64,000 nt of DNA. It comes from Gilvibacter sp. SZ-19. GTDB taxonomy: Bacteria > Bacteroidota > Bacteroidia > Flavobacteriales > Flavobacteriaceae. The translations under genes were made by a program, and so were the position numbers. Positions within the stretch are counted from its first letter, which is position 1, and every line of letters starts with the position of its first letter. A model generated the notes under the pieces. It worked only from the letters and a program-made list of their open reading frames with translations, made no database searches and was not told where the DNA came from. The stretch covers positions 688,864 through 752,863 of the forward strand of contig NZ_CP019333.1 of the NCBI RefSeq assembly GCF_002163875.1, given 5' to 3'. Positions 11,534 to 26,789 of the stretch are shown here, one piece after another.

Positions 11534-11566
11534 AAAAAAGGTCTGCCCAAAAGCAGACCTTTTTTA
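11534..11566. terminator. Bidirectional terminator between convergent genes
   Basis: GGTCTGC (11540-11546) pairs with GCAGACC (11553-11559) around CCAAAA, with an A tract before and a T tract after. It can serve both the plus-strand secreted protein and the minus-strand DAHP synthase gene, whose stop codon overlaps the T tract. Confidence 0.9.
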
Positions 11567-12646
11567 TTGCTTATAGATCTTCTCCTGGTGATTAATAGAT
11601 TCCTGGTGGATTGCCTTGAAAACACGCAGAATAAACTCCTCGCTGAGTTGATGTTGCTCGCCTTCTAGGATCATTTTACCCAAAATCTCGTTCCAACGCT
11701 TGGTTTGTAGCACCGCCACGTTGTTAGACTTTTTTAGCTGACCTATATCGTCTGCTACTTTCATACGCTTGCCTAAGGTTTCTATCAGCTGGTGGTCGAT
11801 CACATCGATCTGCGTGCGCAAGGTATTGAGTTTGTTCTTAAACTCTTGCTCCTGTCCTTCTTCTTTTCTGATGGTAAGCTCCACCATGATCTCTTTCAAG
11901 CGGTCTGGCGTGATCTGTTGCATGGCATCACTCCAAGCATTGTCTGGATCGTAATGCGTTTCTACCATGAGTCCATCGTAATTCAGATCTAAGGCCATTT
12001 GACAAAGATCAAAGATGATGTCTCTACGCCCAGCAATATGCGAAGGGTCTAAAATTAGCGGTAGATCCGGAAAACGGTTCTGCAGATCAATAGCTATTTG
12101 CCATTCTGGGTTGTTGCGGTAGCGGGTTTTTTCGTAGGTTGAGAATCCGCGGTGGATCACTCCAAGATTTGCGATATCCGCAGTATGAAAACGCTCCACA
12201 GCCCCTAACCACAACGAAAGATCTGGATTTACAGGGTTCTTGATAAGTACCGTCTTGTCTGTCCCTTTTAAGGCATCTGCAATTTCTTGAACAATGAAAG
12301 GAGACACTGTGGTTCTGGCACCGATCCAAAGTATATCCACATCGTGCTTTAAGGCCAGATCCACGTGATTGGCGTTGGCTACTTCTGTGGTGGTCAACAA
12401 GCCTGTTTCTTCTTTGGCCTTCTGAAGCCACTTTAGACCCAAAGCACCAACTCCTTCAAAATTCCCTGGACGGGTTCTAGGCTTCCAGATCCCAGCTCTA
12501 AGCACGCTCACATCACTGTCCTTGAGTTCGTGAGCTATCTTGAGTACTTGGGCCTCTGTCTCTGCACTACATGGTCCCGCTATCACTAAAGGGTGGTCTA
12601 GCCCAAAGGCGTCTAACCAATTCCTGAGTTCTTTTTTATTTTCCAT
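11564..12646 (-). CDS. Bifunctional DAHP synthase / chorismate mutase
   Basis: The 360-residue fusion carries two activities. An N-terminal DAHP synthase of the Ibeta/KDO8P-synthase-like type (about 1-255) has GPCSAE (about 20-25), RAGIWKPRTRPGNFEG and LDPSH motifs. It condenses PEP with erythrose-4-phosphate. A C-terminal AroQ chorismate mutase (about 265-355) has LNTLRTQIDVIDHQLIETLGKR and QTKRWNEIL, and converts chorismate to prephenate. The fusion is common in Bacteroidetes and usually allows allosteric feedback by prephenate/chorismate through the mutase domain. It is the last gene of the pheA operon, 6 nt after tyrA, so the operon holds both the entry step of the pathway and the branch steps to Phe and Tyr. 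Confidence 0.95.
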   Translation of the reverse strand: MENKKELRNWLDAFGLDHPLVIAGPCSAETEAQVLKIAHELKDSDVSVLRAGIWKPRTRPGNFEGVGALGLKWLQKAKEETGLLTTTEVANANHVDLALKHDVDILWIGARTTVSPFIVQEIADALKGTDKTVLIKNPVNPDLSLWLGAVERFHTADIANLGVIHRGFSTYEKTRYRNNPEWQIAIDLQNRFPDLPLILDPSHIAGRRDIIFDLCQMALDLNYDGLMVETHYDPDNAWSDAMQQITPDRLKEIMVELTIRKEEGQEQEFKNKLNTLRTQIDVIDHQLIETLGKRMKVADDIGQLKKSNNVAVLQTKRWNEILGKMILEGEQHQLSEEFILRVFKAIHQESINHQEKIYKQ

Positions 12647-12652
12647 AGTCTT

Positions 12653-13510
12653 CTAATTCTTCTTGATTCCGTTTAATATATGTTTGATGCTATTTATTGC
12701 TGTCATTTCCTTATGCATGGTTGGCTCATCATTTTTTTCTACCAATTGCTTAAAGGCTTCTAAATTGGCGATATAAGCATTCAGGCTGTCTAAAAGATGT
12801 TCGCGGTTCACCGAAAATATCGGCGCCCACATATTGGGGCTACTCTTTGCCAGACGCACCGTAGATTCAAAACCACTGCCAGCCAGGTCAAAGATGTCGC
12901 GCTCATTCTGTTCTATATCCATCACCGTTTTGCCCAACATAAATGAGCTTACATGAGACAAATGCGATACATAAGCCAAGTGTTTATCGTGGGCTTTTGG
13001 GTCCATATAACGAATACGCATACCGAGTTGGCGACACAATTCTTGGCCCTTCTCTTGTAAGGTCAAACTGGTCTTTTCTACCTCGCAGATAATGTTTGTT
13101 TTTCCATCGAACAAGCCAGATATAGCCGCTCTGGGGCCAGAGTATTCAGTACCCGCAATTGGGTGCATAGCCAAGTAATTCCTTCTTTTAGGATGCTTAG
13201 CTACCGCTTCACAGATCACCGCTTTGGTAGAACCCATATCGATCACCAAAGTCTGATCTCCTACCTGATCCAACACAGTACTCAAAGTACTTGCCGTAGC
13301 ATGAACAGGGATCGCCAAGACCACTAGATCTGCTTTAGCTAAGTCGTTTTGGGTTGCTTCGGAGTCGACCAAGCCCAGATCCTGTGCTTGCTCTAAATGA
13401 TCTGCATTGTTGTCAATCCCCAGTAATAGTACTTTAGGATACAAGCGCCTTAGATCTATGGCCAAAGATCCTCCAATAAGTCCCAAACCTATTATCACTA
13501 CCCGATTCAT
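12653..13510 (-). CDS. tyrA: Prephenate dehydrogenase
   Basis: This 285-residue NAD(P)-dependent enzyme oxidatively decarboxylates prephenate to 4-hydroxyphenylpyruvate, the Tyr precursor. The Rossmann motif GLGLIGGSLA is at about residues 8-17. HPIAGTEYSGP carries the substrate-binding His, and SHLSHVSSFML is a family stretch. There is no ACT domain. The ATG overlaps the stop of the aminotransferase by four bases. Confidence 0.95.
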   Translation of the reverse strand: MNRVVIIGLGLIGGSLAIDLRRLYPKVLLLGIDNNADHLEQAQDLGLVDSEATQNDLAKADLVVLAIPVHATASTLSTVLDQVGDQTLVIDMGSTKAVICEAVAKHPKRRNYLAMHPIAGTEYSGPRAAISGLFDGKTNIICEVEKTSLTLQEKGQELCRQLGMRIRYMDPKAHDKHLAYVSHLSHVSSFMLGKTVMDIEQNERDIFDLAGSGFESTVRLAKSSPNMWAPIFSVNREHLLDSLNAYIANLEAFKQLVEKNDEPTMHKEMTAINSIKHILNGIKKN

Positions 13511-14667
13511 ACGCTTATTTTCTTTTCAGTGATACGTCTGTGAGCAGCTTCTAGGTCTGTGAGTGAAACACAAAGTGAGATCCGCAAATAACCCGCTCCT
13601 CCGGAACCAAAAACGGTTCCTGGAGTGAGAAACAGATCGGCTTCATCTAAGAGTCGGTCTGCCAGGGCTTCTGCATCTGTACCTTCTGGTAAGGCAACCC
13701 AAACAAAAAGACCTTGCTGATTATCACTGAACTCTCCGCCCAAGGCAGTCGCGATCTTCCACGCCCACTCACGGCGTCTGGCATAGGTTCCGTTAAGTTG
13801 ATCGAACCAGCTTTTGTCCATCCCCAAGGCTGCTATAGCTCCCATTTGCAAACCGTAGAACATACCGCTATCCATATTGCTCTTTACCTTCAGTACTACC
13901 TGGATAAAATCTGCATTTCCACAGAGCATCCCAATACGCCAACCGGCCATATTAAAGGTCTTGCTCAGCGAATTGAGTTCCAAGGCTACTTCTGCTGCAC
14001 CCGGTACTTCTAAAAGCGAAATAGGCGTATCGTTGAGGATAAAACTATAAGGATTATCATTTACAAGCAGAATTTCATGCTCTTTGGCAAAAGCGACCAA
14101 TTCGCTAAAGAATGCTCGTGTTGCAGTTGCTCCTGTTGGCATATGCGGATAGTTCACCCACATGATCTTTACTTTAGACAGATCGGTCTTTGCCAGCGCT
14201 TTGAGATCTGGCAACCAATGGTCTGTCGCATTTAGATCGTAAATTCTTATGTTGGCCTCTACCAATCGAGCTACTGCAGCATAAGTAGGGTAGCCAGGAT
14301 TAGGGATCAATACCTCATCCCCAGGATTCAAAAAGGCCATTGAGATATGCATGATACCTTCTTTGGAACCCATCAAGGGTAAGACTTCTGTCTGCGGATT
14401 CAAACCTACCTTGTAATGATCTTTGTAAAAGCCAGCGATGGCTTCACGCAATTCTGGGATCCCCTGGTAAGATTGATATTGATGCGCTTTAGGGTGCGCA
14501 AGAGCATCTTGCAGCGCCGCGGTGACTTCTGGCGCAGGAGGTAAATCCGGAGAGCCGATACCGAGGTTGATGACCGGCCTTCCGGCGGCGATGCGCTCGC
14601 GGACTTCTCTTAGTTTTCTAGAGAAGTAGTATTCTTGAGTTTGTGATAAACGACTTGCAGTGATCAT
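13507..14667 (-). CDS. PLP aminotransferase (class I/II), probable aromatic aminotransferase
   Basis: This 386-residue fold-type I aminotransferase has NLGIGSPDLPP near the N-terminus, NPGYPTY, and the PLP lysine in SLSKTFNMAGWRIG. It lies between pheA and tyrA with four-base overlaps on both sides, so it most likely transaminates phenylpyruvate and 4-hydroxyphenylpyruvate to Phe and Tyr. Related sequences also include LL-diaminopimelate aminotransferases, so the aromatic role rests on context. Confidence 0.85.
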   Translation of the reverse strand: MITASRLSQTQEYYFSRKLREVRERIAAGRPVINLGIGSPDLPPAPEVTAALQDALAHPKAHQYQSYQGIPELREAIAGFYKDHYKVGLNPQTEVLPLMGSKEGIMHISMAFLNPGDEVLIPNPGYPTYAAVARLVEANIRIYDLNATDHWLPDLKALAKTDLSKVKIMWVNYPHMPTGATATRAFFSELVAFAKEHEILLVNDNPYSFILNDTPISLLEVPGAAEVALELNSLSKTFNMAGWRIGMLCGNADFIQVVLKVKSNMDSGMFYGLQMGAIAALGMDKSWFDQLNGTYARRREWAWKIATALGGEFSDNQQGLFVWVALPEGTDAEALADRLLDEADLFLTPGTVFGSGGAGYLRISLCVSLTDLEAAHRRITEKKISV

Positions 14668-15542
14668 AAGCTAATCTTCTTGTCGTTATAGGTACCGATA
14701 ACCTTAAAATGTTTGGCCATTATTTCTAACATGGCAACTGCTTTTTGAAAGTCAGCCGGATCGTCAAAGAGCACATCGACAAAAAAAGAATAACGCCAAG
14801 GCGTCTCTATGATAGGTAAAGATTGGATCTTGGTAAGACTCAAATTACAATCGCTCATAACGTTCAAGGCAGTCGCCAAACTACCTCGTTTGTGATCTAA
14901 TTCGAACTTGAGCGATGCCTTGTTGATCTCTACCCCAGGCTCCTCTACTCGCGTTTTACTGACAAGTACGAAACGCGTTGCATTTTTGGCTATAGATTGC
15001 ACATCCGCGGCTAACACCTCTAGCCCGTAAAGCGAAGCAGATAAAGTAGGTGCCAATGCAGCTATTGCTTGGGACTTGTTCTCTGAAATTTCCTTGGCCG
15101 CTAGCGCTGTATCTGAAGCTTCTACCAACTTAATATGCGGATGTTTACTAAAGTAATCCTTGCACTGCAATAGTGCCATATAATGGGAATGTACCTCCTT
15201 GATGTCTGCAATTGTCTGCCCAGGTAGCGCCAATAGATTATGACTGATGTTCAAGTAGTGTTCTCCGCAAACATGAAGATCGTTCTTGTCGATCAGGGCG
15301 TAGTTTGGCAAAATAGATCCCGCAGTGGAATTCTCAACGGCCATGATCCCAAAATCCACCTCATCGGCCACCAAGCGGGCAATAAGCTCGTCAAAGGTGG
15401 TACACTCAACCACGCTGGCATTGGGCCCGGCCCATTGCGTGGCCGCCAAATGATGATTGGAACCCAACACACCTTGAATAGCGATCTTGCTATCTGGGCG
15501 GTTAATCGGGTGTTGCACTGCTGTTTTTGTTTCTTCGTTCAT
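14664..15542 (-). CDS. pheA: Prephenate dehydratase
   Basis: The enzyme converts prephenate to phenylpyruvate for Phe synthesis. It has 292 residues: a periplasmic-binding-like catalytic domain (about 18-200, with VDFGIMAVENSTAGSI and a later NATRFVLVS) and a C-terminal ACT domain (about 210-290), which usually binds Phe for feedback control. There is no chorismate mutase domain; that activity is in the last gene of the operon. The start codon lies only 3 nt after the T tract of the terminator at 15546-15576, so expression must depend on read-through. Confidence 0.95.
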   Translation of the reverse strand: MNEETKTAVQHPINRPDSKIAIQGVLGSNHHLAATQWAGPNASVVECTTFDELIARLVADEVDFGIMAVENSTAGSILPNYALIDKNDLHVCGEHYLNISHNLLALPGQTIADIKEVHSHYMALLQCKDYFSKHPHIKLVEASDTALAAKEISENKSQAIAALAPTLSASLYGLEVLAADVQSIAKNATRFVLVSKTRVEEPGVEINKASLKFELDHKRGSLATALNVMSDCNLSLTKIQSLPIIETPWRYSFFVDVLFDDPADFQKAVAMLEIMAKHFKVIGTYNDKKISL

Positions 15543-15545
15543 ATC

Positions 15546-15576
15546 AAAAAAAAATCCCGAGACTAGCTCGGGATTT
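15546..15576 (-). terminator. Attenuator terminator immediately before pheA
   Basis: On the minus strand AAATCCCGAG (15576-15567) pairs with CTCGGGATTT (15561-15552) around a 5-nt loop. The T run extends through 15546. This is a strong intrinsic terminator, but it is upstream of the operon, between the leader peptide and the pheA ATG at 15542. Its 5' arm can instead pair with TCGGGA at 15615-15610 inside the leader coding region, giving a possible antiterminator. Confidence 0.88.
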
Positions 15577-15598
15577 ATATGTGTTTCACTTTAGTAAA

Positions 15599-15670
15599 CT
15601 ACATAGGCTTCCCGATCTCCTTTCGGAAATAAAAAAACCAATAGTTGTAAAAAGTACTAAAGTTGTTCAT
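15599..15670 (-). CDS. Aromatic-rich leader peptide (23 residues) of the pheA operon
   Basis: An ATG at 15670 opens a 23-codon frame ending in TAG at 15599. Codons 4-15 hold nine aromatic residues: Phe4, Phe7, Tyr8, Tyr10, Trp11, Phe12, Phe13, Tyr14 and Phe15 (FYNYWFFYF at 7-15). A terminator lies 22 nt after the stop and then pheA. The candidate promoter starts transcription about 13 nt upstream. Such composition, placement and the competing RNA pairings are the marks of a ribosome-mediated attenuator that senses charged tRNA-Phe, -Tyr and -Trp. The product itself probably has no function beyond being translated. Confidence 0.82.
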   Translation of the reverse strand: MNNFSTFYNYWFFYFRKEIGKPM

Positions 15671-15687
15671 TCTTAGTTATTGAAGTG

Positions 15688-15719
15688 CTAAAGTAGCCAT
15701 TGCGATGGATGCTGCAAAA
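15688..15719 (-). promoter_or_regulatory. Promoter of the pheA leader/operon
   Basis: TTTTG (15719-15715) and TACTTTAG (15695-15688), with a 19-nt spacer, fit the flavobacterial -33/-7 pattern with one mismatch in TAnnTTTG. Transcription would begin near 15683. Confidence 0.5.
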
Positions 15720-15723
15720 TTTT

Positions 15724-15751
15724 TTTGAGATTTTTATAATTCCTAGCTTTA
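15724..15751 (+). promoter_or_regulatory. Promoter of gldA
   Basis: TTTG (15724-15727) and TAGCTTTA (15744-15751), with a 16-nt spacer, resemble the flavobacterial promoter with one mismatch. It is back-to-back with the divergent pheA promoter; the two -33 elements are only 4 nt apart. Confidence 0.4.
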
Positions 15752-15765
15752 CACAAAAGAAATTC

Positions 15766-16668
15766 ATGTCTATAGCTGTTTCAGATCTGACCAAGAATTA
15801 CGGTGCGCAAAAAGCACTTGACGGTGTATCCTTTAAAGTAGCCAAAGGAGAGATCGTTGGTTTTTTAGGCCCCAACGGTGCGGGAAAATCCACTTTAATG
15901 AAGATCCTGACCACCTACCTAGAGCCGAGCTCTGGGACCGCTGTTGTAAACGGTCAGGACGTGAGCACTGCGCCTATGGCAGTGCGCAGCAGCGTAGGAT
16001 ATTTACCGGAGCACAATCCCTTGTATTTAGAGATGTATGTCAAGGAATATCTGAGCCAACATGCACAATTACACAAAACGGCTAAAGATCGAATCGCCGA
16101 TGTAATAGAACAAACTGGACTAAGCCCAGAAGCTCATAAACGCATTGGTAGTTTGAGTAAAGGATTTCGACAACGTGTAGGTTTGGCAGCGGCATTGCTC
16201 CACGACCCGGAGGTACTGATCTTAGATGAGCCCACTACGGGCTTGGACCCGAACCAGATTCTCGAGATCCGGGAGTTGATCAGAAAAACAGCAGCTTCTA
16301 AGACCATTTTCTTGTCTACGCACATCATGCAAGAAGTAGAGGCGCTTTGCGACCGAGTTATCGTGATCAATAAAGGGCAGATCGTGGCAGACCACAAGCT
16401 CAGTGAATTAAAAGGTGACCAAGCGCAAATTGTAGAGGTGGCCTTTGACTTTCGAGTAGAAGAAGTGGCCTTGAATCGCTTGCCAAAGGTGTCTAAAGTG
16501 GAGAACATTCACGAATTCACGTACTTGCTTCATTTTAATACTAAGGAAGACATGCGAGCAGCGGTATTCGACTTTGCGCACGACAATGGGTTAAAGATCC
16601 TACAACTCAATCAGAAGAATAAGAATCTAGAAAGTCTCTTTAGAGAGTTGACTAATCCAGAAAAATAA
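15766..16668 (+). CDS. gldA: Gliding-motility ABC transporter ATP-binding subunit GldA
   Basis: This 300-residue ABC ATPase has Walker A GPNGAGKST (about 35-43), the signature LSKGFRQR (about 129-136), Walker B LILDEPTTGLD (about 151-161) and the H-loop STHIM. The N-terminus (MSIAVSDLTKNYGAQKALD) and the stretch YLPEHNPLYLEMYVKEYL closely resemble GldA of flavobacteria, which acts with GldF/GldG in gliding motility. GldF and GldG are not next to it here, so the assignment rests on sequence. The start at 15766 is preferred over the ATG at 15700, which would overlap the divergent promoter. Its 3' end overlaps the convergent DUF2807 gene by 17 nt. Confidence 0.85.
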   Translation: MSIAVSDLTKNYGAQKALDGVSFKVAKGEIVGFLGPNGAGKSTLMKILTTYLEPSSGTAVVNGQDVSTAPMAVRSSVGYLPEHNPLYLEMYVKEYLSQHAQLHKTAKDRIADVIEQTGLSPEAHKRIGSLSKGFRQRVGLAAALLHDPEVLILDEPTTGLDPNQILEIRELIRKTAASKTIFLSTHIMQEVEALCDRVIVINKGQIVADHKLSELKGDQAQIVEVAFDFRVEEVALNRLPKVSKVENIHEFTYLLHFNTKEDMRAAVFDFAHDNGLKILQLNQKNKNLESLFRELTNPEK

Positions 16669-17401
16669 GCCGGCCGGTATAATACTCCGTGACCTCAACT
16701 ACTGCAGGTCTATTTAAGCAGATCACGTCTCCAACGCTTCTCAGTTCTCCGCTTATGGATTGCTGCGGATTTAGAAACATCTGATTCGTCCCACGATGAA
16801 ACAGCGTCGCATGCTGAATGATAAGACTTTCTGCCTCTATGCGGCAATCGCCGCTAAAGACTCTAAAATCTGCAATATCGGCCGTTCCTCTCAGAAAAAA
16901 ATTAGACAAGTTATTCGTAGAAACAAGGAGTTGCTCCACTTCTAAATCCATATCAAAATCTCCGTCTACATTCACCCTATCATTTTCGGTAAAGTCCTCC
17001 GCCTTTAAAATAAGTTCATCGTATCTCAAGACCCCATCGCTTCTAACAGTGCGACCAGATTGGTTGCTGATCACTTTGATATCAGGGCTCGTCACATACG
17101 CAATGGTAGGCCTGTAATCGCGCGTTAGATTACACGCATTTGCATCGCGTAGTATGAGTTCACCATTTTCCACTATTGCCGTTATATCAGGCATCAAATT
17201 CTCTCCTGCTTCTATGACCACCGAATGCCTATCGCCTTGTTTGAGCACCAGCTCTACGCGCTCCCGTACACGAATTTTGCTAAAGGCCTCGACCTCGAAT
17301 TCTTGCTGCACACGGTCTCCATTGGTCTGGAAACAATCCAAAGCATTATCACTATCACACGACAGTAAAACAACAGCAAGTAAGAAAGTCCAAATTCTCA
17401 T
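16652..17401 (-). CDS. DUF2807 lipoprotein (copy 1)
   Basis: The product has 249 residues. A lipoprotein signal peptide ends in the lipobox LLSC (Cys15). The rest is a right-handed beta-helix-like DUF2807 (putative auto-transporter adhesin/GIN) domain, with short repeated beta strands and the C-terminal block NPQQSISGELRSVGDVICLNRP. It should sit on a membrane facing the periplasm or the cell surface. It is clearly paralogous to the gene at 18563-19318 and follows a PagL-like gene by 1 nt. Confidence 0.82.
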   Translation of the reverse strand: MRIWTFLLAVVLLSCDSDNALDCFQTNGDRVQQEFEVEAFSKIRVRERVELVLKQGDRHSVVIEAGENLMPDITAIVENGELILRDANACNLTRDYRPTIAYVTSPDIKVISNQSGRTVRSDGVLRYDELILKAEDFTENDRVNVDGDFDMDLEVEQLLVSTNNLSNFFLRGTADIADFRVFSGDCRIEAESLIIQHATLFHRGTNQMFLNPQQSISGELRSVGDVICLNRPAVVEVTEYYTGRLIFLD

Positions 17402-17402
17402 A

Positions 17403-18530
17403 TCACAGTTTATTGAATCTAATACCTACAGCAAATTCTACAGCTTCGGCCTTGGCTCCATGAGCCTTGACCGTCACGCCTGCAAAGACACGGTCATTCT
17501 TACCGAAGTACCTTTTTAAACCTAATCGGTTGTATAATTGTCCCTCGAAATCAAAAGGATAATACACATAATACCCTAGCTGTGAAACAAAGGCAACTTT
17601 ATTGAAGCGCAGTTCATGCCCGATAAAGATTCCCACCCTTTTCCAGTCCTCGTCTCCACTAAAGTTCTCTTCTGGAAAAGCCACGGAGCGGTAATAGATC
17701 AACTCCTTTAAAAACTCAGCAAAAAACACATCCACTCCTGCTTGTAAAGTAGACTTGCGATTGATCCGCTTATCTGCAAAAGCAGAAACTACGTAAAAAG
17801 GGAATTGTCCTTGCCCAACAACATCACTCTCATTCACCCCTCCACGCAAGACCAGATTGAAATGAATAGGCTCAGAGTACGGGGTCTTACCTTCAAAAGG
17901 CACATAGTCGGGAAAATCCTGATAATCGAACTGATAATTCAGTCCCGCACTAAAAGCAAAGGTGTTTGTACTATTGTTAGGCGCTCTTAAATTAGCATTG
18001 GAATAATGAATAACAGTAAATCCGGCTTGGAAACCTAGGCCTTTCCAAAAGCGCTCTTTAACGTAATCGAACTTGAGCATGGTAGTGCTCAACAAATGCG
18101 TTCCGAAGGCGTTGTTGAGAAAGTTCTCGTTGCGGTCATAGGGATTACTCGCATAGGCTATACCTTGGCCTATCCGCAGCACTAGTGACCTTTTTAAAAA
18201 GTAGAAATTGAAATGTCCATAAAGGCCGTAGTTTTCACCGAGCGATTCATTCTTAAAATTCTGATAGGTAAAAGTAAATCCCCAATCCGGATAGTTGTAA
18301 CGCCTTTCCCACGCATTGAAACCGTAAGTTTTTCTATTGTAGCTCAGCACAAATCCTTCGGGATGGTCGGTTATCAGATGACTCAAGTCCGGATTATGCT
18401 CCATTATGGTTCCGTAGAAATAGTCGAACTGCAATGAAAAAGGCTTTTGCTCTGGCTGCTCTTGAGCGCAAACCACAGTTGTACCGCACAACACGAGGAA
18501 AAAGAATTGATAGAGCGGGCGGAGGTTCAT
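17403..18530 (-). CDS. PagL-like acyloxyacyl hydrolase / outer-membrane lipid A 3-O-deacylase-related protein (copy 1)
   Basis: The protein has 375 residues with a signal peptide (about 1-22) and is predicted to form an outer-membrane beta barrel, judging from alternating aromatic strands and a terminal GIRF. The segment HYSNANLRAPNNSTN contains the His-x-Ser-Asn pattern of the PagL active site. This suggests deacylation of lipid A or related lipids. At 375 residues it is about twice the length of classical PagL, so extra strands or a different substrate are likely. It precedes a DUF2807 lipoprotein gene by 1 nt. Confidence 0.7.
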   Translation of the reverse strand: MNLRPLYQFFFLVLCGTTVVCAQEQPEQKPFSLQFDYFYGTIMEHNPDLSHLITDHPEGFVLSYNRKTYGFNAWERRYNYPDWGFTFTYQNFKNESLGENYGLYGHFNFYFLKRSLVLRIGQGIAYASNPYDRNENFLNNAFGTHLLSTTMLKFDYVKERFWKGLGFQAGFTVIHYSNANLRAPNNSTNTFAFSAGLNYQFDYQDFPDYVPFEGKTPYSEPIHFNLVLRGGVNESDVVGQGQFPFYVVSAFADKRINRKSTLQAGVDVFFAEFLKELIYYRSVAFPEENFSGDEDWKRVGIFIGHELRFNKVAFVSQLGYYVYYPFDFEGQLYNRLGLKRYFGKNDRVFAGVTVKAHGAKAEAVEFAVGIRFNKL

Positions 18531-18562
18531 ATGCTATCTACGAAAAATTAGGTGCGCTGGTT

Positions 18563-19318
18563 TTAATCTTCAAAGAGTAATCTGCCCGTAAAAAGTTCTT
18601 CTACCGCTACGGTTGGTGGTCTATTGACAGAAATTACATCTCCTGTTCCTCGTATCTCTCCGGTTATGGATTGCTGCGGATTGACTATCATCTTGTTGGC
18701 ACTAACTTGAACGATCTGTACATTTTGGACTACAAGTTCACGTGCTTCTAGACGCGGTTGCTCGTCAGAAAAGATAAAAGATGCACTTTGAACTTGCCCA
18801 GAAAGGTAGAACACACTGATCCCGTTAGCCACTATGCGTAGCGTGTTGGAATTGACCTGCAAAAAGAAATCTCCACTCTTTTTCCCAGAACTACCTTCGC
18901 CGGCAGTATTACTCAGTAGTAAAAGCTGTGGATAATTCAATACACCATCACTGCGCACCTCAAAACGTGAGCTATTGCGAATCTCAATTATATTAGGAGC
19001 TTCAACATAGACCGTGGTCAATCCGTATTCCCTAAAGAAATTACAGGCGTTATCGTTTTTCACGACCAAAAGCTCACCTTGCTTTTCAACACTAATATCG
19101 TCGATCAAAAACTCGCCGCTTTCTAGCACAACATTATACGCAGGAGCTTCGCGAATTACCAGACGCACACCATCTTCTATGCGGATGCGTGAAAAGTCAG
19201 TAATTTCAAATTCCTTGCTCACCAGATCACCCGCAACTTGCAAACAATCGGGTGCATTACTGCTGCTACATCCGTAGAGCAAAAGCGAAGAAACTATTAG
19301 AAGTACTACTTTTTTCAT
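18563..19318 (-). CDS. DUF2807 lipoprotein (copy 2)
   Basis: The product has 251 residues with a lipobox LYGC (Cys17) and a DUF2807 beta-helix-like domain. It shares the C-terminal block (NPQQSITGEIRGTGDVISVNRP) and a conserved N-terminal Cys (PDCLQ versus LDCFQ) with copy 1. Copy 2 carries a serine/glycine-rich insertion (GEGSSGKKSG) in the middle. It begins 1 nt downstream of PagL-like copy 2, so gene order is PagL2-DUF2807_2-PagL1-DUF2807_1, a duplicated two-gene unit. Confidence 0.82.
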   Translation of the reverse strand: MKKVVLLIVSSLLLYGCSSSNAPDCLQVAGDLVSKEFEITDFSRIRIEDGVRLVIREAPAYNVVLESGEFLIDDISVEKQGELLVVKNDNACNFFREYGLTTVYVEAPNIIEIRNSSRFEVRSDGVLNYPQLLLLSNTAGEGSSGKKSGDFFLQVNSNTLRIVANGISVFYLSGQVQSASFIFSDEQPRLEARELVVQNVQIVQVSANKMIVNPQQSITGEIRGTGDVISVNRPPTVAVEELFTGRLLFED

Positions 19319-19319
19319 C

Positions 19320-20420
19320 TTAATTGAATCGATACCCTATTCCAAAAGCGAGTGCTTCTGCTTTGGCCCCGTGGAGCTTAAGTGCTAGAGATCCGTATAA
19401 TTTTTTATTAATGCTGTGTTTGAGTCCAACCCGCTGATAAAAACGACCTTCAAAGTCATAGGGATAATACAAGTAATAACCCACATGGGTCAGCAACGCA
19501 AGTTTTCCAAAATGCAGTTCGTGACCCAAAAAGATTCCAGCTCGTTTCCAATCTTCATCGCCTTGCGTGTCCTCTCTGGGAAATGCAATTGCTCTATAGG
19601 AAATCTCTTCCTTTAAAAATCGTGACAGGAAAAAATCAAACCCTCCCAGAATAGTACTTCGACGATTCAGACGTTTGTCTGCAAAAGCAGAAAATACTAA
19701 AAACGGATGCTGCCCCAAACCGACATAATCACTTTCATTCAATCCAAAACGAAGCGCGGCATTGAAGTGCCAGGGTTCTGTGTAGTTGTTATCTACCTCT
19801 TCATCCAGATAGGTCAAAGTCTGGGTATAATCTAGGTCATAGCTCAATCCCAAATGTACTGCCAAGGTATTGGTACTGGTGTTCGGAGCTCTGAAATTCG
19901 CATTGGAATAATGCACTAAGGAACCTCCCAAATGCAATCCGAAGCCCTTATACAAACGCGGCAATACCAAATCGGTTTGTACAAAGGTCGAGCTCAATAA
20001 GCGAGAACCATAAGCATTGTTCTTAAAATTGGTTTCCAGATCGTACGGATTGGTCGCATAAGCTAATCCCTGACCGATCTTGAAGCGGAACAAACGCTTA
20101 ATAAAGTAAAAGGAATAATGGGCATAAAGTCCATAGGTCTGCCCAAGGGCAGGCTCCTTTGGGTCTTGATAAATAAAGGAGAATCCAAAATCTGGATAAT
20201 TGTATAGGCCTTGCCATTCTTGCTGCCCAAAGCTACGTCGGTTGTAGCTCAATATGATTCCTTCCGGATGTCCGGTGATCAGGTGTGCAACATCTTTGTT
20301 ATGCGCTACAATACTGCCGTAGAAATAATTGGCTTCAATGAATTCAGACTGTGCCGTTGTTTGCTGCCCCAATAGCGCGAGTGGCAAACAAGAGATCAAG
20401 ACGGCAAGCCAGTTCTTCAT
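19320..20420 (-). CDS. PagL-like acyloxyacyl hydrolase-related outer-membrane protein (copy 2)
   Basis: The product has 366 residues. The start at 20420 begins a good signal peptide (MKNWLAVLISCLPLALLGQ) and is preferred over an ATG six codons upstream. It contains HYSNANFRAPNTSTN (PagL-type His/Ser) and shares long blocks with copy 1, such as HLITGHPEGIILSYNRRSFG, DEDWKRAGIFLGHEL, YYLYYPYDFEGRFYQR and KLHGAKAEA. It is therefore a tandem paralogue in the same outer-membrane family. Confidence 0.7.
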   Translation of the reverse strand: MKNWLAVLISCLPLALLGQQTTAQSEFIEANYFYGSIVAHNKDVAHLITGHPEGIILSYNRRSFGQQEWQGLYNYPDFGFSFIYQDPKEPALGQTYGLYAHYSFYFIKRLFRFKIGQGLAYATNPYDLETNFKNNAYGSRLLSSTFVQTDLVLPRLYKGFGLHLGGSLVHYSNANFRAPNTSTNTLAVHLGLSYDLDYTQTLTYLDEEVDNNYTEPWHFNAALRFGLNESDYVGLGQHPFLVFSAFADKRLNRRSTILGGFDFFLSRFLKEEISYRAIAFPREDTQGDEDWKRAGIFLGHELHFGKLALLTHVGYYLYYPYDFEGRFYQRVGLKHSINKKLYGSLALKLHGAKAEALAFGIGYRFN

Positions 20421-20450
20421 GGGCTTAAAAATAACCAAATTCCTTACAGA

Positions 20451-26529: not shown

Positions 26530-26653
26530 TTTTCTTTCTTTTTGAGTTAAACTGAATTAATTCAAAAGTCAAATGCGCTTTAAAAAAGCGTACTTACAGA
26601 AAAATGTTATAAAGAAATTGAACCCCATTCCTAAGTCGGGAACTGGGTCTTGA

Positions 26654-26759
26654 GTTATCTATCCGGAACATCCGGTAGAATTTAGCACCTTCTTTGTACG
26701 AAGAGACAAAGGGTTGCTAAGGCTTCACAGGGTCTAATCCCTCCACCTTTCTTGATAAC
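26654..26759 (-). promoter_or_regulatory. SAM-I (S-box) riboswitch upstream of metY
   Basis: On the minus strand the P1 helix GTTATC/GATAAC (26759-26754 with 26659-26654) encloses the S-box core. The core includes AAGAAAGGTGGAGGGA, GACCCTGTGAAGCC, TTAGCAACC and GGTGCTAAATTC. A following imperfect hairpin (about 26619-26649) with a poor T-rich tail may be the expression platform. A second small hairpin (26576-26590) lies closer to metY and has no T tract. High SAM should switch off the methionine operon. This leader accounts for most of the 349-nt gap between metY and the DUF1080 gene. Confidence 0.96.
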
Positions 26760-26789
26760 ATTTCAATAAGTGTTTGAACTTTATGAGCA

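Follow-up and report, generated by a model that had tools for sequence, protein, structure and literature searches.

A putative leader-peptide attenuator upstream of pheA in Gilvibacter sp. SZ-19 and its counterparts across Bacteroidia

The operon that begins with pheA in Gilvibacter sp. SZ-19 is preceded by a small frame crowded with aromatic codons and by a terminator that lies almost on the pheA start codon. To find out what this arrangement does, we analysed a 64,000-nt stretch of the genome (3.10 Mb, single contig), which we call the window, together with pheA loci of other bacteria. The first-pass annotation of this DNA had proposed ribosome-mediated attenuation. The sequence evidence supports that proposal: the residues of the leader match the operon, a copy of terminator segment 4 covaries, and this copy keeps its spacing to the last aromatic codon. 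We consider the element very probably a ribosome-read transcription attenuator of the leader-peptide type. Its anatomy, its conservation, the covariation of pairings 2:3 and 3:4 and the spacing were read from the sequence, and from these we infer the start site, translation of the leader, stalling, and termination and its relief.

Anatomy of the leader and its operon

In the window, pheA encodes prephenate dehydratase (14664..15542, minus strand; Pfam PF00800, E 5.3e-55). It is followed on the same strand by a class I/II aminotransferase gene (13507..14667; PF00155), whose first 4 bases are shared with the end of pheA, by tyrA for prephenate dehydrogenase (12653..13510; PF02153 and PF20463) and, as the last gene of the presumed operon, by a gene for DAHP synthase fused to type II chorismate mutase (11564..12646; PF00793 and PF01817). 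Overlaps of 4 bases join pheA, the aminotransferase gene and tyrA in sequence. The gene upstream of the leader is divergent.

The closest named PheA relatives are those of Gilvibacter sediminis and a Gilvibacter MAG, both 84% identical. Gilvibacter PheA carries an apparent N-terminal extension (15542-15485 of the window, minus strand); the PheA matches start at residue 13-20 in most of 80 relatives and at residue 1 in the two Gilvibacter. Two further features of the window were recorded. A SAM riboswitch (RF00162, 82.1 bits) lies at 26652-26761 on the minus strand, with a frame at 26529-25228 (sulfhydrylase-like by eye) downstream and homoserine dehydrogenase further on. At 16652-20438, minus strand, two tandem gene pairs resemble a duplication by eye, 16652-17401 with 18563-19318 (small lipoprotein-like) and 17403-18530 with 19320-20438 (outer-membrane-like).

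Promoter-like boxes were found at 15688..15718 on the minus strand, TTTG (15718-15715) and TACTTTAG (15695-15688) separated by a 19-nt spacer; the second box fits TAnnTTTG at five of six fixed positions. A sigma-70 scan returned no promoter, and the flavobacterial boxes fit. Both Gilvibacter relatives have identical boxes, and boxes of this kind were present in 103 of the 122 leaders with 75 nt of upstream sequence, versus 499 of 2440 shuffles. The putative leader peptide, MNNFSTFYNYWFFYFRKEIGKPM, is encoded at 15599..15670 (minus strand) by 23 codons and the stop TAG (15601-15599), and the frame is conserved in relatives. Codons 4-15 (15626..15661, minus strand) form an aromatic cluster of five Phe (codons 4, 7, 12, 13 and 15), three Tyr (8, 10 and 14) and one Trp (11). 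No other of the 924 ATG frames of 8-60 codons in the whole window (both strands, nested starts counted apart) reached this count of nine aromatic residues per 12 codons, the runner-up having eight.

Downstream of the frame, segment 3 (15567..15576, minus strand) is the 5' arm of a 10-bp terminator, AAATCCCGAG (15576-15567), and pairs with the 3' arm CTCGGGATTT (15561-15552), which together with the T run to 15546 makes up segment 4 (15546..15561, minus strand). The T run is followed by GAT and then by the pheA ATG at 15542, so that the terminator ends 3 nt before the start codon. The promoter, the 23-codon frame with nine aromatic residues and this terminator had all been described in the first-pass annotation; the coordinates and counts were correct, the terminator being on the minus strand. 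Segment 2 (TCGGGAA; 15609..15615, minus strand), located within the frame, is a near copy of the terminator 3' arm and can pair with segment 3 in its place.

The leader RNA folded at −39.5 kcal/mol, versus −23.3 ± 3.2 kcal/mol for 200 shuffles (z = −5.1). When the terminator was left out, the minimum-energy fold was an extended 1:2-type stem (15588..15663, minus strand; −25.9 kcal/mol) that holds segment 2 and would hide it in the absence of a ribosome. Its sequence is largely common to the three Gilvibacter.

A short frame so close to a gene might also act by translational coupling or re-initiation at pheA, the hairpin only shielding the start region. Re-initiation has been proposed for short leader genes, in Bacteroidetes among others, in a survey of leader genes (PMC4833913), and the 3-nt gap between terminator and ATG would suit it. 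The distances given in that survey peak at 11-14 bp in Bacteroidetes, whereas the leader stop and the pheA ATG are 56 nt apart here, and re-initiation leaves the aromatic cluster, the T run and segment 2 without explanation. We therefore regard it as very unlikely.

Conservation of the leader across Bacteroidia

We examined 80 named family loci found through PheA and 77 genome stretches representing the family, order, class and phylum. To call a leader, we required a frame of 8-60 codons with at least five aromatic residues in 12 codons within 800 nt before the PheA domain and, after it, a T-run hairpin with an energy of −9 kcal/mol or lower. By this rule, a leader with a terminator preceded pheA at all 94 assessable loci of Flavobacteriaceae (77 of 80 in the PheA-found set, 17 of 17 in the genome-stretch set), although all loci are related and the counts are not independent events. 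The three family loci without a call lie on contigs that carry at most 165 nt upstream. The conservation of the frame and of its aromatic codons in close relatives, which the first-pass annotation had named as a check, was thus looked for and found.

Leaders were also called at 12 of 20 loci from other families of the order (pheA lay inside an operon at four, and none was found at four) and at 24 of 32 loci from other orders of the class (five inside an operon, three none found). In nine of these 16 loci without a leader, pheA follows another gene closely. The other seven (L113, L114, L117, L118, L138, L140 and L149) gave no leader by the rule though pheA is not directly behind a gene; three of them (L138, L140 and L149) come from a single family (f64), a pattern suggestive of loss or of a different mode of control. 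Outside the class, the same rule found no leader in eight stretches or in 29 further or overlapping loci; these cover 33 distinct genomes of the 127 with a PheA match, and the 29 loci are the best matches only. Several genomes with a PheA match were left out, namely G088 in the family, G221, G238, G245 and the partial G235 in the order, and G037, G064, G158, G162, G166, G178, G190, G270 and G276 in the class. One record labelled as a Rhizobium MAG (L068) carries a pheA and a leader of the Flavobacterium type, and its contig is for that reason probably mis-binned.

AT-rich intergenic DNA yields many Phe and Tyr codons by chance, and an ordinary intergenic terminator beside a chance frame could look similar with no regulation at all. 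That explanation is hardly conceivable: the leader rule accepted only 3 of 298 resampled sequences and 2 of 149 reverse strands, versus the 94 of 94 assessable family loci, and with the upstream gene divergent there is no other evident transcript that would need the terminator.

For further analysis we assembled 124 unique leaders from 130 loci with a candidate frame, after removing four duplicates, L170 (no terminator, outside the class) and L129 (wrong frame picked; its leader is found under the rule above). They encode 113 distinct peptides, and those from other orders resemble MKSFTYAYYFFFYFYFYHKVEREFVCIK or MKLFNTYYFGYFYYFSKSRG. The cluster codons were TTT (404), TTC (174), TAT (266) and TAC (104), with only five TTA. 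In the other two frames, TTR made up 149 of 416 and 264 of 596 TTN codons, and one of these frames holds 160 stops in 1488 codons. The window and G. sediminis frames differ at only two codons, a TAC/TAT change and a Lys codon that is the stop in G. sediminis. What the leaders preserve is the protein identity, namely the aromatic residues, while the letters vary.

Competing pairings and the position of the ribosome

Pairing of segment 2 with segment 3 (6 bp plus 2 beyond a mismatch) and of segment 3 with segment 4 had been drawn in the first-pass annotation; both are present in the window, and both covary in relatives. In 64% of the 124 leaders, segment 4 shared a word of at least 6 nt with the stretch before segment 3, versus 18% when the terminator was taken from another stem class and 7% after shuffling. 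A plain cross duplex test (−8 kcal/mol or lower) was passed by 106 of 124 own pairs, 279 of 620 cross pairs and 126 of 620 shuffled pairs; it was blurred because many leaders share similar stems, and the stems were therefore grouped into nine classes, such as CCUGA, CCCGA/U, UCUCG, CCCGG, CCCGC, GACCGC and GCCUCG. The segment-2 copy changes along with the stem class: the own class had the lowest mean energy in eight of nine rows and in seven of nine columns, with one tie. The own segment 3 was strictly the best partner in 58 of 124 leaders (about 14 expected by chance). Leaders of the Flavobacterium CCUGA class have a weak segment 2.

Of the 64 family leaders whose stems are of the UCUCG or CCCGA/U type, 40 were aligned to score covariation; the other 24 had been removed by eye because they looked near-identical or because their segment 2 spanned the stop. 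The alignment contains no leader of the Flavobacterium CCUGA class. Helix 2:3 was paired in 83.0% of cells, compared with 76.9% after shuffling and 14-43% when slid; doubly changed cells numbered 27 (9.4 ± 4.6 in shuffles), and the covariation was 0.300 versus 0.184. Three of five measures exceeded all 500 shuffles; the other two, pairs with a double change (3 vs 2.5) and pair types (6 vs 6.8), did not rise above them. Only 6 of the 38 rows form the outermost pair of helix 2:3. Helix 3:4 was paired in 97.8% of cells and covaries likewise.

The 7-bp 1:2 helix (one G-U) proposed earlier fared differently. It is present in the window as written, but it is not conserved and is not the best fold, which is the extended stem at 15663-15588. 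Over the 40 relatives the helix was paired in 54.7% of cells, and its covariation was reached by 5 of 500 shuffles, yet slid versions scored equally well; we rejected it as a conserved element, and the duplex and fold energies concur. A simple 1:2 duplex barely beat shuffled upstream sequence (−5.6 vs −5.0 kcal/mol), and folds from the leader start to segment 2 had z values that averaged only −0.85 over the leaders and stood at −0.11 for the window. Modelled without a ribosome, the chance of pairing 2:3 in the window was 0.01, versus 0.63 with shuffled upstream sequence, which leaves segment 2 hidden. Over the 124 leaders the values were 0.46 and 0.65; segment 2 was hidden by more than 0.2 in 42 leaders, the window included, and exposed by that much in none. 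Since the 1:2 helix is unconserved and its duplex and fold energies are close to shuffled values, the sequences suggest that protection of segment 2 without a ribosome is not a generally conserved element, being real in about a third of leaders.

The distance from the last codon of the cluster to segment 2 was far more constant, with a median of 9 nt (IQR 7-11, SD 3.7; 124 leaders) versus a median of 18 nt (SD 15.2) in shuffled controls. The stop codon, by contrast, lies at very different distances from segment 2 (SD 10.3 nt), and among the Gilvibacter leaders the stop shifts between codon 24 and codon 21. By its position, segment 2 begins where the front of a stalled ribosome would lie. We modelled the ribosome as covering 12 nt from the first A-site base, the E. 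coli value, which is an assumption of the model. The modelled chance that 2:3 forms before segment 4 is made was 0.64-0.71 as long as the A site lay within the 13 codons that finish with the cluster end; it fell to 0.47 one codon past the cluster, 0.12 two codons past it and 0.01 at the stop. The fall as such follows from masking; what is informative is that it is placed at the cluster end. For the leader in the window, a ribosome on the aromatic codons gave a modelled chance of 0.42-0.68, and one at codon 18 or later gave 0.0.

Taken together, these observations suggest the following sequence of events. Transcription would begin near 15684, and a ribosome would start on the 23-codon leader. 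When tRNA charged with Phe, Tyr or, in this leader, Trp runs short, the ribosome would stall in the aromatic cluster with its front edge just before segment 2, leaving segment 2 free for the nascent segment 3. With 2:3 paired, no terminator would form and the operon from pheA through the aminotransferase gene and tyrA to the DAHP synthase gene would be transcribed. When the tRNAs are charged, the ribosome would move on and mask segment 2, so that 3:4 could pair and transcription would stop 3 nt before pheA. In Gilvibacter, a leader without a ribosome would also have segment 2 hidden, by the long 1:2-type stem, and termination would therefore be the predicted default. Attenuation is the best reading because the residues match the operon, the residues are kept over the letters, the segment-4 copy covaries and the spacing is fixed.

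A terminator with an alternative pairing is also the shape of a riboswitch, a T-box or a leader read by an RNA-binding protein, with the frame present by chance. We consider such a switch extremely unlikely. No Rfam family reached its gathering score at the site, the three top sub-threshold matches were themselves peptide leaders (Leu, Phe and Trp), conservation of the frame is at the protein level, and segment 2 keeps a set distance from its codons.

The spacing of about 9 nt is shared by leaders that have diverged in peptide, stem and stop position alike. It may therefore belong to a class-wide aromatic attenuator of Bacteroidia whose geometry follows the front edge of the stalled ribosome rather than the place of the stop codon, a generalization to which we give even chances. 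If it is true, RNA polymerase and the leading ribosome would have stayed closely coupled across Bacteroidia, and in lineages lacking the 1:2 stem a leader that is not translated would be read through by default, opposite to E. coli trp. The pheA leader could provide a natural readout of how transcription and translation are coupled in Bacteroidota, and it would add an unannotated regulator of aromatic amino-acid synthesis for a very large bacterial group.

Amino acids read and comparison with known systems

The first-pass annotation had held that one leader reads all three aromatic amino acids. This reading holds for Gilvibacter, where all three leaders carry a Trp codon, but not in general because 49 of the 124 leaders have none. 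Every one of the 124 leaders contains Phe, 123 contain Tyr and 75 contain Trp, the last being distributed as 56 of 72 in the PheA-found family set, 9 of 17 in the other family set, the window itself, 2 of 11 in other families of the order and 7 of 23 beyond.

Family searches of the same genome found HisG in one place, TrpE in two, homoserine dehydrogenase in one and ILVD_EDD_N in none. A candidate leader, MNITQLHHHHAHSGLQAS (HHHHAH), with a terminator precedes hisG (L189, C1:2511943-2515404), and another, MKQINVNTWWWSAQSTSS (WWW), also with a terminator, precedes trpE (L190, C1:526906-530343). Segment-2 candidates lie 4 nt downstream of the last His codon in the hisG leader and 9 nt downstream of the last Trp codon in the trpE leader. 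The second TrpE-like gene (L191) lacks a leader of this kind. The residues of each leader (Phe/Tyr/Trp, His and Trp) fit the pathway of its operon. The trpE leader matches the Rfam family Bacteroid-trp (RF01692; 49.8 bits, gathering 49), and the hisG leader had no Rfam match up to E = 0.1.

These data bear on a variant that is compatible with the attenuator reading, in which only Phe and Tyr act as effective signals; the Trp codon would be incidental, with the trpE leader doing the sensing of Trp. The near-universal Phe and Tyr, the patchy Trp and the separate Trp leader before trpE speak for it. The conserved Trp codon of the three Gilvibacter leaders speaks against it, as does the last gene of the operon, DAHP synthase, whose product also serves Trp; in addition, a modelled stall at the Trp codons also gave pairing 2:3 (mean 0.69, n = 76; 0.57 in the window). 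We regard this variant as possible, with the odds somewhat against it.

Parts of the present picture have appeared before. A transcriptome study of F. psychrophilum gave clues for leader-peptide attenuation before amino-acid operons and described a structured 5' element of pheA that is present in other genera of Flavobacteriaceae (PMC9723704). Since the gene and the family are the same, it is very probably the element studied here; the parts of that paper examined do not call the pheA element a leader-peptide case and give no codons, segments or spread beyond the family. The kind of mechanism is already known, and a structured pheA element and clues to attenuation are already in print in that paper. 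Small frames reminiscent of leader peptides are described in Bacteroides thetaiotaomicron (PMC7366714), and mRNAs of Bacteroidia are reported to lack Shine-Dalgarno sequences (PMC9723704; PMC7366714). Among the titles and abstracts listed by text searches of a library with few subscription journals, none presented a bench test of such an attenuator in Bacteroidota. The earlier statement that no case is characterised in Flavobacteriaceae therefore stands for bench work as far as these searches reach, although the structured pheA element and the clues to attenuation had already been reported. A text search for transcription-translation coupling with Flavobacterium returned only a general review. 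A comparative study by Lopatovskaya and colleagues (2010), cited in PMC4833913, may hold predictions for Bacteroidetes. We met no earlier description of the class-wide spread or of the spacing rule.

Among Rfam families, none was found for the pheA leader. Bacteroid-trp (RF01692), listed as a tryptophan peptide leader RNA of Bacteroidetes in PMC2864571, resembles it in being a peptide leader RNA of this group with a member, before trpE, in the same genome. RF01692 was not among the matches up to E = 5 in the pheA region (15400-15900); its place is before trpE.

The pheA leader also resembles attenuators of Proteobacteria in part. E. coli pheL-pheA has a Phe-rich leader peptide, competing pairings 2:3 and 3:4, and a terminator before the gene. 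The leader studied here likewise places an aromatic leader before a prephenate dehydratase gene, with 2:3 set against 3:4 and a terminator. Unlike pheL-pheA, it mixes in Tyr and often Trp, its operon also contains tyrA and DAHP synthase, and it scored 24.7 bits against the Phe_leader model (RF01859; gathering 55), which indicates that the two are not the same family by that model. In the trpL/hisL-type attenuators of Proteobacteria, a stalled ribosome frees segment 2. The pheA leader would follow the same logic, but the position of its stop codon is not fixed and its 1:2 helix is not conserved.
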